Assembly: GCF_003628535.1 (NCBI RefSeq)
Contig: NZ_RBCI01000001.1
Coordinates: 620,001-684,000, forward strand
From: Flavisolibacter nicotianae
GTDB taxonomy: Bacteria > Bacteroidota > Bacteroidia > Chitinophagales > Chitinophagaceae
Length of the DNA: 64,000 nt
Direction: 5' to 3'
The position numbers and the translations under genes are program-made. A model generated the notes under the pieces. That model was not told the DNA's origin. It worked only from the letters and a program-made list of their open reading frames with translations, and made no database searches. Shown piece by piece: positions 1,660-33,290 of this stretch (its first letter is position 1; each line of letters starts with the position of its first letter).

Positions 1660-2160
1660 TTACAATGAAAGGGTGTTTTCCTTTTGCTGCGCAGACAGCC
1701 TTTCTCTTTCTTCCGCGATATTCAAAACAACCGTCGCCCTAAAATCCTGGTAGCTAATGATGATGCCAATGACGTGGAAAAAGCAAAGAACGAGCAAGTA
1801 AACTCCCTCAAACATGCCAGCCTGCGGTGGGCTCATTGCAGCCCAATTGACTTCATGGATAAGCAGGAAAGCAATAAAACTATAAGGCAAAAGCATCCAT
1901 GCCAGCAAGCTAAAGAACAAGCTGTATGCGACTTTACGGTAACAATTCAAAAACGCTGAAAGCGTAAGCATGCCTGTAAGGCCCGAAAAGAATACATTTT
2001 TCAGCAGGGCCTGGCAGAAGCTGTTTTCGGCAACAAGCTGCCAGCTATAATCTCCATGTATCCAGATACCACCTACGATAAAAAATCCAATGAAGCAGGC
2101 AAGGTAAAATGGCACCAATACAGCGGCTTTAAAGTAAACCCGGAGAATGTGAAAGGCCAT
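1660..2160 (-). CDS. Small membrane protein of unknown function
   Basis: A 166-residue protein with four predicted hydrophobic segments (about 10-30, 55-75, 85-100 and 120-140) and a charged, Gln/Glu-rich C-terminal tail (AEERERLSAQQKEN). I do not recognise a family. It lies 66 bases downstream of kynA on the same strand and could be co-transcribed with it; nothing in the sequence links the two functionally. It converges with the MBL gene, with only 38 bases between the stops. Confidence 0.7.
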   Translation of the reverse strand: MAFHILRVYFKAAVLVPFYLACFIGFFIVGGIWIHGDYSWQLVAENSFCQALLKNVFFSGLTGMLTLSAFLNCYRKVAYSLFFSLLAWMLLPYSFIAFLLIHEVNWAAMSPPQAGMFEGVYLLVLCFFHVIGIIISYQDFRATVVLNIAEERERLSAQQKENTLSL

Positions 2161-2226
2161 AGGCAGTCAGATTTTGCTTTTCAGAAGATTGCCCAAAATA
2201 CAATTTGTTGCGAGAGAATTTTACAA

Positions 2227-3735
2227 TCAATCTTCCACCGCAAAACCCAGCTTTCGTTCTACCTCTTTCGGCAATTGCGGCAGCCTTCTTCGCTCGATCA
2301 AGAACGAGGTGAGCTGCGCAATTTCCTTGAAGATGTAATGCTTGTCTGCAGCAGCTTTCAGGTAATCTTTTCCGCTGCTGCCACCCGTGCCAATGCGGGT
2401 ACCGATCATGCGGTGCACCATGTTCATGTGACGGTGCCGCCAGGTGCTGAGCTGTTCGTCGATATCCAGCAAATTATTCAGCAACTGAAACGGCAATTGC
2501 AGCAAAGGGTAGCCGCGGTAAAGCATAATGAACAAAGCGGCGCGGTTGGCCTTCGCGGAAAAAGTATAATGCGATTCACGCTGCTGAATGAAGACTTCAT
2601 CAAACGCTTCGAGGTTATTTTTCTCGGCTTCGGCCAAACTGTTTTCGTACGCCTCTTTGTACGCCATCCAAAAATCAAAAGCCCCCCACCCCCCCGAGGG
2701 GGGAGTGGCATACGCACCGGCCTCGCTTATGCTCGTTTTACTTTGGCGGCTATTATTTTTTAAGGCTTGAAGAATTTTGTTTAGGACCTGATCTAAACGA
2801 TGAGTAATCTCTTCATTTGTAAACCGCACAACGCGATACCCCTTGCTTTGAAGCCACTGTGTTCGTGCTTCATCACTTTCTTTGTTTGCCGGCAACTGGT
2901 GAATAAGGCCGTCCACTTCGACAACCAGTTTCTCCGGCAGGCAAACAAAATCGGCTATATAATTGCCAATGATATGTTGCCTTCTGAACTTGTAGTTCGC
3001 CAATTGCTTCTCCCGCAATTGCTGCCAGAGAGCATCCTCTGCCTGCGTCGGTTTGCTCCGATGTTCTTTCACAATTTGTTTGAGCAATCCGTAGTTCATT
3101 GGATCGGCTGTTCTGTATTCTGCTTCCTCTTCCGCCAGTGCATCAGTGTCATGTTCAAGCGGGCTCTGTGCTTCGGCCACTCCCCCCCTGGGGGGCGGGG
3201 GGGCCAAAGGCATCCGCTCCAGCCAGTCATTAACCAACTGCAGAAACGACTGTTCACTTTCCGCTTTCTTGATCATTACAACATGCTCTTGCCGCAACTG
3301 CGAGGTGTAATATTCCTTGCCATGGCGATAATCAAACTTCAGTCCCAGCTTTGCCTCCAGTAGCTTGAACTGCCAGCTTTGAAAGCCCGACGCCGGCCGC
3401 AGCATGTCGCGGAAGTCCAAAAAATCCATAGGTGTCATTGTTTCCAGGATATCGATCTGGTGCACCAGCACACGCAGGATTACGCCCATCCGGTTCAGCC
3501 GGTGTACAACGGTTTGCAGTTCCGGCGAATTATCATTTAAAGACGGCTTGCGCATGATCCCGTGCAGCGAATCCACTTCGAAATGCAGTTGCTTGAACCA
3601 AAGCTCATAGGCCTGGTGAATGATGATGAACAGCATTTCGTCGTGTGCGGAGGCGTTGTGTTTATCGCTTTCAAGCGTTTGCGCTGCAAGTATTTTATCC
3701 AGTTGCAAATAATCGTGGTAGTGAACGTCTGTCAT
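2227..3735 (-). CDS. kynA: Tryptophan 2,3-dioxygenase interrupted in frame by a DUF559 nuclease element
   Basis: Heme enzyme that opens the indole ring of tryptophan to N-formylkynurenine. Both halves of the enzyme are intact: the distal heme-pocket region IIIHQAYELWFKQLHFE has His40, and the C-terminal half has WRHRHMNMVHRM (about 432-443) and the substrate loop GTGGSSGKDYL (about 449-459). Between them, residues about 178-352 are foreign. That segment carries Pro/Gly-rich ends and a complete DUF559 domain (about 213-325; RRQHIIGNYIADF, VVEVDG). Removing these 175 codons leaves about 327 residues, the usual bacterial length, in frame. ATG at 3735 is preferred over a TTG at 3765, because the latter overlaps a -7-like CATCTTTG. 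Whether the fused product is an active dioxygenase is unknown. Confidence 0.93.
   Translation of the reverse strand: MTDVHYHDYLQLDKILAAQTLESDKHNASAHDEMLFIIIHQAYELWFKQLHFEVDSLHGIMRKPSLNDNSPELQTVVHRLNRMGVILRVLVHQIDILETMTPMDFLDFRDMLRPASGFQSWQFKLLEAKLGLKFDYRHGKEYYTSQLRQEHVVMIKKAESEQSFLQLVNDWLERMPLAPPPPRGGVAEAQSPLEHDTDALAEEEAEYRTADPMNYGLLKQIVKEHRSKPTQAEDALWQQLREKQLANYKFRRQHIIGNYIADFVCLPEKLVVEVDGLIHQLPANKESDEARTQWLQSKGYRVVRFTNEEITHRLDQVLNKILQALKNNSRQSKTSISEAGAYATPPSGGWGAFDFWMAYKEAYENSLAEAEKNNLEAFDEVFIQQRESHYTFSAKANRAALFIMLYRGYPLLQLPFQLLNNLLDIDEQLSTWRHRHMNMVHRMIGTRIGTGGSSGKDYLKAAADKHYIFKEIAQLTSFLIERRRLPQLPKEVERKLGFAVED
2681..3205 (-). mobile_element. DUF559-encoding element with C6/G6 hairpin inverted ends, inserted in frame in kynA
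   Basis: About 525 bp (175 codons), bounded by inverted repeats of about 30 bp. The + strand left end, GCCCCCCACCCCCCCGAGGG, continues into GGGAGTGGC. The right end, read on the minus strand, has GCCCCCCAGGGGGGGAGTGG. Each end is itself a hairpin (C6 then G6) followed by AGTGGC. Between them lies a Vsr-like DUF559 endonuclease frame with the motifs RRQHIIG, ADFVC, VVEVDG and IHQ, and a possible own ATG at 3099. There are no intein splice residues. The same ends recur at 32175-32375 in nadE. DUF559 is known to share the PD-(D/E)XK-type Vsr fold; the mobility is my inference. Confidence 0.82.
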
Positions 3736-4009
3736 AAAAATGCCGGTGATTTTTGTTCGCCGCAAAGATGACGAAGTTTCTTACGCAACAGGTCGCACTC
3801 ACCCCAATACATACTTTTCTTTTCCGCCGATTACATTTTGCTCCCGGACTTTGACCAATGCTTACGTCTGTGAATACGGAAAAGCCCACGGGAAAAATGA
3901 CCAGGCCACCTCCCCTGTTCACCCGCTATGAAAACACCACGCTAACCAGCCCCATTGAAAACGCCATGCTATCCGGCCGCTTTTATTTCCTCACCTTAAA
4001 ATTGAACGT
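3736..4009. other. Divergent intergenic region between kynA and the sugar dehydrogenase
   Basis: About 270 bases without a convincing gene. On the minus strand, CATCTTTG at 3763-3770 is one mismatch from TAnnTTTG and is a candidate kynA promoter. I find no perfect promoter word for the + strand gene and no hairpin of note. Short open frames here lack any recognisable protein character. Confidence 0.4.
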
Positions 4010-22317: not shown

Positions 22318-22408
22318 CCTCACCCCGGCCACCAAAGGAAGGAGTGGCTCGGCACAGACCTGCGGCCTCCCCAAATCCCTCCGGGGAGGGCTTTCCATCG
22401 CACAGACC
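22318..22408 (+). mobile_element. Decayed copy of the C6/G6 hairpin-end element after purH
   Basis: Starting at the purH stop, CCACCAAAGGAAGGAGTGGC (22329-22348) aligns with the left end of the nadE and kynA elements (CCCCCCAGGGAGGGAGTGGC), and the next bases GGCACAGACC resemble GAAGCACAGAGCC in the kynA copy. A second C-rich/G-rich half, CCTCCCCAAATCCCTCCGGG, follows at 22367-22386 and again ends in GCACAGACC (22400-22408). The interior is gone. The relationship is inferred from these short matches. Confidence 0.55.
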
Positions 22409-22429
22409 CTTGCTTTTGCACGATATAAC

Positions 22430-30321: not shown

Positions 30322-31416
30322 TTACTTCGGCTTATACTTTGCGCCCTCGAAAATCTTCCGGGCCGGCGTGTGAAGAATTTGCGCCACGGAAAGTTTTTTG
30401 TTGCGCTGTTCAAACCGGTCGATGATGCGCCAGCCGATCCACGGCCCGATATTGCCCGGCGCTCCTTCGCCGTTGGTGCCGTGTGGCAGGGTTTGGGTAA
30501 ACGGCGCTTCGCCAATATAGCTTTGCACGGCCGCCTGCTCCACCGAGAACAGGTTCTCGTTTTGGTTGATATAACCCCACACATTGCCCTCTTCCTGGAT
30601 CACCCAGTCCATTTGCCTGGCCGAGTAGCCGGTGATCAGGCTGTCGGGGGTATCGGGAAGGAACTTCTTCATCAGCCACCATTGCTTTCCCTTTTCAATC
30701 ATCTGCTCTACCAGCGAAGCGGACTGGCTGGTGTCGGGATAAATCCCGCTGGCAATGGCCCGTATGGAGTTGGGCACGATGTAGGCCGGCTCGAAGCGGC
30801 GGCGAATGTAGTCCGGGTATTGCGCCGGGTCGTAAACTTCGAAGTTGCGGCCCAGGAACATCTGCAGGCTGATGACCAGCGTATCCTGGTAGTACGTGGT
30901 GCCGTAAATCTCATCGGGGTTCTGCGGGTTGAGGCTTTCAACGGTCGTCAGCACCGCCGGTGTTTTGAACGACGGAAAATAGTATTTGACGTAGCGGAAT
31001 TGATTGCTTAGTCCTTTTTCAATCGGCTCGGTGCGGGGAAAGTTTTTTTCCACCGTGTTGTACAACGGCCGTATCATGCGGATGTAGTCCAGCAAGGCGT
31101 CGCCAAAGGCAAGGTGGCGCTGCTCGGCAATTTCCCGCACCGGCGCAAAGAACTTGAAATAGAGCGGCAGGAAGTCCGGGTATTTTGCTTCCAGGGCCTG
31201 GAGCGAGGGTTGCAGGCGAGTGGTGTCGAGGGCAAAAAAATCCCTGTCGAAACGCTGCAGCTTTACTTCTGTTTTGATACCGGAAACATCCGGCGCCTCA
31301 CGCTTACCCGTACAGGAAAAAACGGCCAGCACAAGGACCGGCAATAACCACGGCAGCAAGGAAGACGGCGTTGTTTTTGATTTATTACAGAACTTTGAAA
31401 AGGATTGAATATTCAA
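30322..31416 (-). CDS. gldB: Gliding motility lipoprotein GldB
   Basis: Lipoprotein of 364 residues linked to the Bacteroidota gliding machinery and the type IX secretion system. Signal LLPWLLPVLVLAVFSC carries the lipobox. The mature protein matches the GldB pattern: VKLQRFDRDFFALDTTRLQ near the start, PLYNTVEKNFP, YYFPSFKTPAV, YIVPNSIRAIASGIYPD-like and PGNIGPWIGWRIIDRF at the end. gldC, which often follows gldB, is not here. It is transcribed away from nadE, with only five bases between the two start codons. The N-terminal 18 residues before the signal core are unusually long, so a shorter start is possible. Confidence 0.9.
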   Translation of the reverse strand: MNIQSFSKFCNKSKTTPSSLLPWLLPVLVLAVFSCTGKREAPDVSGIKTEVKLQRFDRDFFALDTTRLQPSLQALEAKYPDFLPLYFKFFAPVREIAEQRHLAFGDALLDYIRMIRPLYNTVEKNFPRTEPIEKGLSNQFRYVKYYFPSFKTPAVLTTVESLNPQNPDEIYGTTYYQDTLVISLQMFLGRNFEVYDPAQYPDYIRRRFEPAYIVPNSIRAIASGIYPDTSQSASLVEQMIEKGKQWWLMKKFLPDTPDSLITGYSARQMDWVIQEEGNVWGYINQNENLFSVEQAAVQSYIGEAPFTQTLPHGTNGEGAPGNIGPWIGWRIIDRFEQRNKKLSVAQILHTPARKIFEGAKYKPK

Positions 31417-31421
31417 GAGAG

Positions 31422-33290
31422 ATGAAAATTTATTTAGCCCAGCAAAATTATCACATTGGCAACTTTGAAGCGAACACGCAGAAAATTATAGACGGAATTA
31501 ACAAAGCAAAAGCCGCAGGTGCAGACTTGGTGCTGTTTTCGGAGCTTTGCATTTGCGGTTACCCACCCCGTGATTTCCTGGAATTTCATGATTTCATTCA
31601 CCAGTGCTATGCGGCCGTTGACGCCGTAAAAGCACACGCCGACACGATTGGTGTGCTGATCGGCAGCCCGGCCCGCAACCCGCGACCCGAAGGCAAGGAA
31701 CTCTTCAACGCCGCTTTTTTGCTGTACGAAGGGGAAGTGAAAGCCGAGATCCACAAAACCCTGTTGCCCACCTACGACGTATTTGACGAGAACCGCTATT
31801 TTGAACCGGCCTTCGAGTGGACCTGCATCCCGTTCAAAGGGAAAAAACTCGCCGTGACGATTTGCGAAGATATCTGGAACCTGGGCGACAACCCGCTTTA
31901 CCGCCAGACGCCCATGGAAGTGCTGATCAGCGAAAAACCGGACGTGATGCTGAACCTTTCGGCTTCGCCCTACAACTATGCGCAGGACACGGTTCGGAAC
32001 AGCATTGTAAAAGCGCATACGGAGAAATACCGCATCCCGATGCTGTACTGCAACACCGTTGGCTCGCAAACCGAGATCGTATTCGATGGCGGCAGCCTGG
32101 TCTACGATGCGCAGGGCAACAAGGTGAAGGAGATGAAGTATTTTGAAGAAGACTATTTTCTGTATGAGCTGACAGCCCCCCTGCCCCCCAGGGAGGGAGT
32201 GGCCAACACGCAAGGCCAACTTACGCAAGATGCCCCCATACAGATGGAAACTTCTTTAGGGCAAAACAGTACGGCTGAAAATATTTTACAAAAAGAACTG
32301 TCGAAGGCAAACACCGTGTCGTCGCAAAGCGAGGCTTCGCAGCCGGGCCAATCCCCCCTTGGGGGGCAGGGGGACCGGGCCCCCTATTATTATTCTGCCG
32401 CTGACGTAGGCAAAGGGTCCGATATCATCGCCTACCTTACCGACGACAAGAACATTGACGAAATTTACCGGGCCCTGCTCCTTGGCATCCGGGACTATTT
32501 TCAGAAAATGGGGTTTCAAAAAGCCACGCTGGGTTCCAGCGGCGGCATCGACAGTGCCGTGGTACAGGCCCTGGCAGTGGAAGCACTCGGCAAAGAAAAC
32601 GTTCATGTCCTGCTCATGCCTTCACACTATTCGTCTTCCCATTCGGTGAGTGATGCAGAGCAGTTGAGCCGCAACCTCGGCAACCGGTTCGACGTGGTGG
32701 CCATCAAAGACATTTACGATTCGTTCCTGTCGACGCTGAAACCGATCTTCGGCGACCTGCCATTCAGCGTGGCGGAAGAGAACATCCAAAGCCGTGTGCG
32801 GGGAAACCTGCTGATGGCGGTGGCCAACAAATTTGGCTACATCCTGCTCAACACCTCCAACAAAAGCGAACTGGCAACGGGCTACGGCACGCTCTACGGC
32901 GATATGGCCGGTGGCCTGAGTGTGCTGGGCGATGTGTACAAAATGCAGGTCTTTGCCCTGGCCCGGTACATCAACCGCAAAAGCGAGATCATTCCCGAAA
33001 ATATTCTCACCAAGCCACCGTCGGCCGAACTGCGTCCGAATCAAAAGGACAGCGACAGCCTGCCGGAGTACGATATCCTGGACCGCGTGTTGTACAATTA
33101 CATCGAGTTGCGGCAGGGGCCGAAGGAGATCATTGCACAGGGCTACGATCCCGCGCTGGTGACGAGAACCCTGCGCCTGGTGAACCTGAACGAGTACAAG
33201 CGCAACCAGTTTTGTCCCATCATCCGCGTCAGCAGCAAAGCCTTTGGTGTAGGACGGCGGCTGCCGATCGTGGCGAAATACCTTTCCTAG
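31422..33290 (+). CDS. nadE: Glutamine-dependent NAD+ synthetase carrying an in-frame element
   Basis: Final enzyme of NAD synthesis, two domains in one chain of 622 residues. The N-terminal nitrilase-type glutaminase has Glu in LFSELCICGYPPRD (about 45), Lys in IHKTLLPTYDVFDE (about 113) and Cys in LAVTICEDIW (about 150). The C-terminal synthetase has the P-loop LGSSGGIDSAVVQ (about 368), then NTSNKSELATGYGTLYGD and KPPSAELRPNQ. Residues about 252-318, exactly at the domain linker, are foreign and Pro/Gln/Ser-rich; without them the length is about 555, the normal value. ATG at 31422 is chosen over an upstream extension. Both active sites are intact. Confidence 0.95.
   Translation: MKIYLAQQNYHIGNFEANTQKIIDGINKAKAAGADLVLFSELCICGYPPRDFLEFHDFIHQCYAAVDAVKAHADTIGVLIGSPARNPRPEGKELFNAAFLLYEGEVKAEIHKTLLPTYDVFDENRYFEPAFEWTCIPFKGKKLAVTICEDIWNLGDNPLYRQTPMEVLISEKPDVMLNLSASPYNYAQDTVRNSIVKAHTEKYRIPMLYCNTVGSQTEIVFDGGSLVYDAQGNKVKEMKYFEEDYFLYELTAPLPPREGVANTQGQLTQDAPIQMETSLGQNSTAENILQKELSKANTVSSQSEASQPGQSPLGGQGDRAPYYYSAADVGKGSDIIAYLTDDKNIDEIYRALLLGIRDYFQKMGFQKATLGSSGGIDSAVVQALAVEALGKENVHVLLMPSHYSSSHSVSDAEQLSRNLGNRFDVVAIKDIYDSFLSTLKPIFGDLPFSVAEENIQSRVRGNLLMAVANKFGYILLNTSNKSELATGYGTLYGDMAGGLSVLGDVYKMQVFALARYINRKSEIIPENILTKPPSAELRPNQKDSDSLPEYDILDRVLYNYIELRQGPKEIIAQGYDPALVTRTLRLVNLNEYKRNQFCPIIRVSSKAFGVGRRLPIVAKYLS
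31443..31450 (-). promoter_or_regulatory. gldB -7 element inside nadE coding sequence
   Basis: Minus-strand TAATTTTG, an exact TAnnTTTG match, 26 bases upstream of the gldB ATG and about 20 bases inside nadE. A properly spaced -33 TTG is not present. Confidence 0.4.
32175..32375 (+). mobile_element. Non-autonomous in-frame element in nadE with the same hairpin ends as the kynA element
   Basis: About 200 bp. The left end GCCCCCCTGCCCCCCAGGGA continues into GGGAGTGGCC, and the right end (GGCCAATCCCCCCTTGGGGG then GCAGGGGG) is its inverted copy. The encoded start APLPPREGVANTQ parallels APPPPRGGVAEAQ in the kynA copy, and NILQKELSKANTVSSQSEA parallels NKILQALKNNSRQSKTSISEA-like residues at that element's end. 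The DUF559 core between them is missing, so this looks like an internal-deletion derivative in the same orientation and reading frame. About 67 codons are added. Confidence 0.8.

Follow-up and report, generated by a model that had tools for sequence, protein, structure and literature searches.

DUF559 nuclease elements with hairpin ends in frame within conserved enzymes of Bacteroidota: probable homing-like selfish DNA

The gene for tryptophan 2,3-dioxygenase (TDO) of Flavisolibacter nicotianae contains, in frame, an element that encodes a DUF559 nuclease, and elements of this class recur inside conserved genes of its relatives. The insertion is recurrent and in frame, the reading frame is continuous, the nuclease is intact, the repeats at the element ends are dispersed and three types of allele are found; the element class as such is well supported. 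We consider it probable that the elements are selfish and homing-like, driven by their nuclease, that they stay in the host protein, and that they give rise to nuclease-less derivatives; cutting, copying and an unspliced product are inferred. We also lean towards the broader proposal of phylum-wide selfish elements whose nuclease remains unspliced inside conserved enzymes (LeuRS, MetRS, other class I synthetases, MetH, AroC and TDO), drives its own copying and sheds translated palindromes. The element family is apparently undescribed and widespread in Bacteroidota.

The window, which is the whole 64,000-nucleotide stretch analysed, corresponds to G000:C1:620001-684000 of the 6.09 Mb F. nicotianae genome (G000), and its features are collected in Table 1. 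The TDO frame (2227-3765 on the minus strand, 512 aa) has TTG 3765 as the first listed start and ATG 3735 as the likely one. Its Pfam Trp_dioxygenase match (E 2e-77) falls into two stretches, split by a DUF559 match at residues 229-335 (E 2e-35). The first-pass annotation had described the frame as over-long by one discrete block with inverted-repeat ends and a complete DUF559 nuclease inside, and all three points are borne out: the block is 175 codons long, and its ends (2681-2728 and 3157-3204) form inverted copies of 48 nt that are 77% complementary. The insert is thus discrete and in frame, but it is not a clean addition, since a variable loop of ~5-30 residues, which lies between WLERMP and FW in empty alleles, is missing from the occupied ones. 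An internal ATG at 3099, suggested earlier to let the nuclease be made alone, is in frame but not conserved, as the nuclease-bearing TDO of the sister species G301 has no Met there; a Met lies within 15 codons ahead of the DUF559 domain in 35 of 89 in-gene copies. Since the reading frame runs through the element, the nuclease is expected to form an additional domain of the host enzyme, and the TDO product appears to be translated with the nuclease as part of it.

Table 1. Positions of the TDO insert and related repeats in the window
Feature	Position	Strand	Evidence
TDO frame with insert	2227..3765	-	PF03301 in two stretches around PF04480; TIGR03036 in two stretches
Inserted element, in frame, 175 codons	2680..3204	-	position is that of the variable loop of empty alleles
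DUF559 PD-(D/E)XK-type nuclease domain (DF ... E-x-D-G-x-x-H)	2761..3081	-	E 2e-35; nearest solved structures 3hrl, 3r3p
5' end repeat (outer C-tract, CCCCCC/GGGGGG hairpin, AGTGGCC, tail)	3157..3204	-	model 70.5 bits at 3147-3204(-)
3' end repeat, inverted copy of the 5' end repeat	2681..2728	+	model 62.7 bits at 2681-2736(+)
Facing repeat pair, in frame in the NAD synthetase (NadE) gene 31371-33290, no nuclease	32175..32375	+	63.7 and 61.1 bits; PF02540
Weak further repeat-model match	22365..22425	+	20.7 bits

Insertion-free TDO alleles, which the annotation had proposed to seek among orthologues, make up 14 of the 17 found in the 18 genomes of the genus. The nuclease is present at the same point in G000 and G301, while G304 has two repeats at this point and no nuclease. 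The Pfam match is uninterrupted in 13 of the 14 empty alleles and split in G227, but the sequence of the latter has a short loop; sequence was displayed for 12 of the 14 (all except G296 and G298). In the family sample, TDO was found in 82 of 117 genomes, and the longest frame elsewhere is 401 aa, as compared to 517 aa (stop to stop) in G000, with the partial matches of G032, G043 and G082 left out of the comparison. The block is therefore no conserved domain of TDO: it occurs in two of the 17 genus proteins, and no other long frame is seen among the 82 family genomes. In the TDO host tree, the empty G299 allele lies between those of G000 and G301 (93/88 and 89/90, unstarred, with two outgroup rows lacking the C part), a placement that is suggestive only. 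In a separate observation, the TDO of G071 (L041) has the repeat-like peptides SHSPQGGQGA and EEWEGGRS in variable loops, and these may also be remnants of this type.

Between G000 and G301, the TDO nuclease has a pN of 0.14 at a pS of 0.79, and the two host halves have pN values of 0.05 and 0.04 (pS 0.62 and 0.81). By this comparison the nuclease is under purifying selection, and its silent divergence equals that of the host gene, arguing against recent transfer at this locus. The linkers of the insert reach pN values of 0.24 and 0.34, and their lower silent divergence (0.55 and 0.36) suggests a DNA-level constraint on the element ends.

The M23 peptidase locus of the genus carries the nuclease in G004, G299 and G306, two repeats in G304 and a single-repeat remnant in G303, and it is empty in the seven other displayed genomes (G269, G000, G301, G300, G294, G296 and G298). 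Five further M23 frames, seen by length and not by sequence, measure 241-255 aa, and G302 has distant paralogues only. The nuclease host differs among species of the genus: TDO and an N-terminal ArgB fusion in G000, the M23 peptidase in G004, a MetH-like frame in G227 and LeuRS in G269, where the last two genomes have four DUF559 matches each, of which one was examined. The family genome search found no DUF559 in G104. A stand-alone DUF559 copy in G000 (L011, G000:C2:508371-508694) has a stop inside the match and lies near two genes with in-frame repeats.

The terminal repeat, for which the annotation had recommended a genome search, proved to be dispersed in G000. The two findings that the annotation had named as refuting it, a DUF559 block conserved in related TDO proteins and end repeats confined to this place, were both contradicted by the data. 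BLAST located it at seven other places, and our own count of CCCCCCAGGGGGG with up to one mismatch gave 15 distinct places, against 0 for the reversed-pattern control. A repeat model of 58 positions, built from ten copies, had at least 53 matches at E <= 0.1 when 150 of 2046 candidates were scored, ten being the model's own sequences. By our own reading, the genome contains 12 facing repeat pairs without a nuclease, and four further partner ends were matched at E <= 0.03. The pair in the NadE gene of the window is a nuclease-less derivative of the element. Pfam also identifies a GntR-aminotransferase regulator and a class-IV aminotransferase with in-frame repeats. Others, in which names come from reading the sequence and Pfam gives the wider family at most, as for IleRS and ArgB below, are Lhr-like and RecQ-like helicases and an RNA methyltransferase with in-frame repeats, and HisC, LeuB, GlyRS and an epimerase with repeats at the N-terminus. 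A nucleotidyltransferase of G000, likewise recognized by reading, has an N-terminal repeat, and a similar N-terminus holds the nuclease in G119 (L168).

Of the 294 family genomes, 156 contain DUF559, as do 222 of the 395 phylum genomes. We estimate by eye that long frames account for about two thirds of the ~150 DUF559 matches listed. We chose 80 family regions for long frames (>=280 aa) among the matches listed, so that the in-gene shares of this set are not prevalence. Their 89 host frames form 16 clusters, and one cluster separates into 33 LeuRS and 6 MetRS frames. At least 16 gene families in the family sample host DUF559 in frame. The hosts supported by Pfam are AroC, an IcmF-type mutase, MetH, homocysteine methyltransferase, CinA, Lhr helicase, adenine deaminase, acetyl-CoA synthetase, M23 peptidase, GcpE, GHMP kinase, nucleotidyltransferase, LeuRS, MetRS, HsdR and an amino-acid kinase, which we read as ArgB. 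The HsdR frame of G052 (L089 2170-6309) has, besides its DUF559 block, a separate in-frame GIY-YIG nuclease domain, and other nuclease types may live in the same way.

LeuRS is occupied at two sites. Site A, between WIGKSxGAEIxF and VxTTRPDTIFG, is filled in 26 of the 33 frames, and site B, ahead of RETNTMPGYAGSSWYF, in ten; both are filled in three (L093, L095 and L098), and several frames occupied at A have repeat-like peptides without a nuclease at B. When the carriers were searched for LeuRS, 31 of 33 had a single locus, the occupied one; the exceptions were G220, broken by contig ends, and G283, with two loci. Among the named genomes (the best 80 of at least 521 relatives, found with a query that favoured in-gene copies), a longer frame encloses 68 of 81 domains. 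By reading, hosts in this set include MetH in Winogradskyella, Marivirga, Salegentibacter, Flavobacterium and Leeuwenhoekiella, IleRS in Prolixibacteraceae and Marinilabilia, ValRS in Prevotellaceae and RecG in Flavobacterium difficile. A Pfam search of eight frames, seven of them from named genomes, returned two MetH, a class I synthetase (read as IleRS), ValRS, RecG, GH31 and a DegT aminotransferase. Two records titled as Limnohabitans and Ignavibacterium MAGs (L334 and L258) have DUF559 in RecG-like and MetH-like frames resembling those of Bacteroidota, and are possibly misbinned contigs.

The element ends were analysed by local alignment of the upstream DNA with the reverse-complemented downstream DNA, against shuffles. 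Inverted ends exceeded 95% of shuffles in 77/89 in-gene and 7/8 standalone copies of the family set, and in 54/66 and 12/12, respectively, of the named set. The medians of the family alignments were 16 for self, 10 for direct and 8 for shuffled comparisons. Because each end is itself a GC-rich palindrome, direct matches (48/97 in the family set, 21/66 and 7/12 in the named set) and non-self pairs of the named set (42% and 38%) also beat shuffles. Typical ends have the form CCTCACCCC-nnn-CCCCTCTCC-n-GGAGAGGGG or CCCC-nn-CCCCTAAAGGGG. Measured from end to end, 67 elements have a median length of 507 bp; their flanks showed no target-site duplication above the control (best matches of 0-6 nt versus 0-8 nt in the control), and no target consensus was seen in the flank list.

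The catalytic D/E/D/H residues are present in 177/178/177/178 of 178 copies. Profile searches matched the nuclease to 3hrl (E 3e-30), to 3r3p, the homing endonuclease I-Bth0305I (E 1e-5), and to the PADLOC 'homing endonuclease' entry (E 6e-5). A structure model (mean pLDDT 75; domain blocks mostly 82-94, with one at 71 and one at 55) retrieved 3hrl and 3r3p first in a fold search of the PDB (3r3p at E 1.3e-4, TMt 0.76), and E. coli Vsr at E 0.17. A quick nuclease tree, built on 113 columns and leaving 46 of its 94 inner branches open, requires 31 changes of insertion site, as compared to a shuffled mean of 67.5 and a minimum of 19. The ArgB copies (95*) and the Lhr copies (100*) each stay with one host, LeuRS site A shows at least four changes by starred branches, and copies from AroC, LeuRS A, LeuRS B and Lhr fall together in one starred clade. 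Taken with the sites, the tree fits a mixture in which some copies stay with one host and others change site.

The element, in our reading a selfish mobile one, measures ~500 bp, consists of a single DUF559 nuclease frame flanked by two inverted hairpin repeats, and occupies a few tolerated places in housekeeping genes: loops, domain linkers and N-termini. In the mechanism that we propose, the nuclease would nick or cut an allele without the element, or a resident repeat, and repair would copy the element into the cut allele in a homing-like manner. Insertions that spare the enzyme would persist; the nuclease could later decay, leaving repeat pairs or single ends that are still in frame. New targets would be reached occasionally, and decay to repeats would be frequent.

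The main counter-evidence to this homing-like reading comes from repeat numbers. One common end type has 650 copies in 100 of the 294 family genomes and none in the reversed-pattern control. It is found in 75/128 genomes with DUF559 and 25/166 without (p 7e-15), and within genera it also follows DUF559 (23 up, 6 down, 9 ties, p 0.002). This strong raw association arises mostly because the elements' own ends are counted, and it falls away once two ends per DUF559 copy are subtracted (28/128 versus 25/166, p 0.17); five or more copies then remain in 15 genomes with DUF559 and 7 without (p 0.024). Such a weak dependence on the nuclease leaves room for another mover.

One alternative, which we regard as unlikely, is REP/RAYT-like mobility, in which the DUF559 nuclease would act on single-stranded hairpin ends and move or copy the repeat pair to new sites. 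The end anatomy of an outer tract with a hairpin in inverted pairs, and the dispersed single and paired copies, resemble REP arrangements, and the lack of target duplication in the 67 elements fits as well. Y1_Tnp (RAYT-type) genes, present in 14 of the 18 genus genomes with three matches in G000, have a layout of the same type with other repeats: at 18 loci examined among the 59 matches listed, including all three of G000, the genes mostly carry their own flanking hairpins (L338-L355), with inverted ends beyond 95% of shuffles in 14. However, the DUF559 nuclease is PD-(D/E)XK-like and not a HuH Y1 enzyme, and the recurrence of the same few sites in distant genomes suits homing or tolerance better.

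It is quite improbable, in our judgement, that another cell factor, such as a Y1/RAYT enzyme or other transposase, mobilises the repeats with the nuclease as a captured passenger. The weak tie between repeat number and nuclease, and the Y1_Tnp genes of the genus, speak for it, as do repeat-rich genomes without strong DUF559: G039 has 27 copies of the common repeat and no DUF559 hit, and G233 has 51 copies and a weaker hit (E 8e-14). Against it, the nuclease is intact, under purifying selection and mostly framed by the ends, and none of the 18 Y1 loci matched the repeat model at E <= 0.5 (one did at E 0.63), so that the element's repeats look like a separate family and RAYT was set aside as their mover.

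It is very unlikely that the nuclease benefits its host enzymes as an added domain passed on by vertical descent: the TDO nucleases of G000 and G301 diverged along with the host gene and the ArgB fusions form one clade, but the hosts are unrelated, sister species have empty alleles, nuclease-less remnants occupy the same sites and the ends are hairpins. We give almost no credence to a disguised intein or intron, although genes expected to be essential tolerate the insert (31 of 33 at the sole LeuRS locus), because no splicing domain was detected in the window TDO protein or eight further occupied frames (E <= 0.001) or in 15 more (E <= 1e-10), Rfam gave no match at gathering score in window 2000-4000, the 175-codon frame is open throughout and the nuclease-less remnants stay in frame; the annotation, too, had denied that the insert is an intein.

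A nuclease gene that occupies an essential gene would be expected to stay hidden through splicing. In these elements, the nuclease seems to remain in a working enzyme, and in many enzymes across the phylum. If homing is shown, the homing-like elements proposed here would add to introns and inteins a further way in which an essential gene can house a nuclease gene. If the broader proposal is true, they provide a route by which conserved proteins acquire new loops, linkers and N-termini. They would also account for many of the odd insertions and loops rich in Pro and Gly that Bacteroidota enzymes contain. The finding bears on the annotation of tRNA synthetases and MetH in this phylum, and gives protein engineers domain-insertion sites that nature has already tested. 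In keeping with the annotation's remark that no such element had been described, the literature searched, seen in part and with subscription papers and bioRxiv mostly outside it, yielded no account of nuclease elements translated inside housekeeping genes, inteins and introns aside, and none of such elements that names DUF559 or PF04480.

Among known systems, every compared family except homing elements has a tested defining feature that the element lacks. The target-site duplication of DDE transposons and classical MITEs is absent from the 67 elements. Inteins, according to the available portion of one account, place an endonuclease in frame inside conserved genes at conserved insertion sites (PMC2814812); unlike them, the element has no detected splicing domain, and its remnants remain in frame. 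The Caulobacter VsrA protein, called Vsr-like in the extract consulted (PMC12907096), belongs to the same domain family but is free-standing, whereas the element lies inside a gene; for E. coli Vsr, the fold similarity of the nuclease model is weak (E 0.17). In REP/RAYT systems, too, a nuclease gene is flanked by small hairpin repeats, which are scattered as single copies and as inverted pairs. In the excerpts available, however, RAYTs are tyrosine (HuH) enzymes and REPs are extragenic, whereas here the enzyme between the repeats is DUF559, of PD-(D/E)XK type, and is often in-gene, in place of a Y1 enzyme flanked by the same repeats.

The annotation likened the element to Rickettsia palindromic elements with an added nuclease, and this comparison is upheld. 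The Rickettsia elements, as outlined in part of the source (PMC10969869), are ~150 bp long, in frame in unrelated genes and translated. The palindromic in-frame insert in unrelated genes is a shared feature and not sequence kinship; the phylum here is Bacteroidota, and the full copies carry a DUF559 nuclease, an enzyme of which the extract on the Rickettsia elements makes no mention, while enzyme-less derivatives also exist. Homing elements compare most directly, as the nuclease is homologous, by profile and fold, to a homing endonuclease family, and the fixed sites have empty alleles in relatives (LeuRS A/B, TDO and M23). The passages seen on I-Bth0305I, one of the EDxHD homing endonucleases, describe a phage-encoded, multi-domain enzyme that binds as a dimer to a target of nearly 60 bp (PMC3943268). 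Its nuclease core is homologous, and recurrent fixed sites in conserved genes are common to both. In contrast, the element has one domain of ~107 aa, hairpin ends, a frame continuous with the host enzyme and no intron found. If homing is shown, it would constitute a new branch of homing elements.
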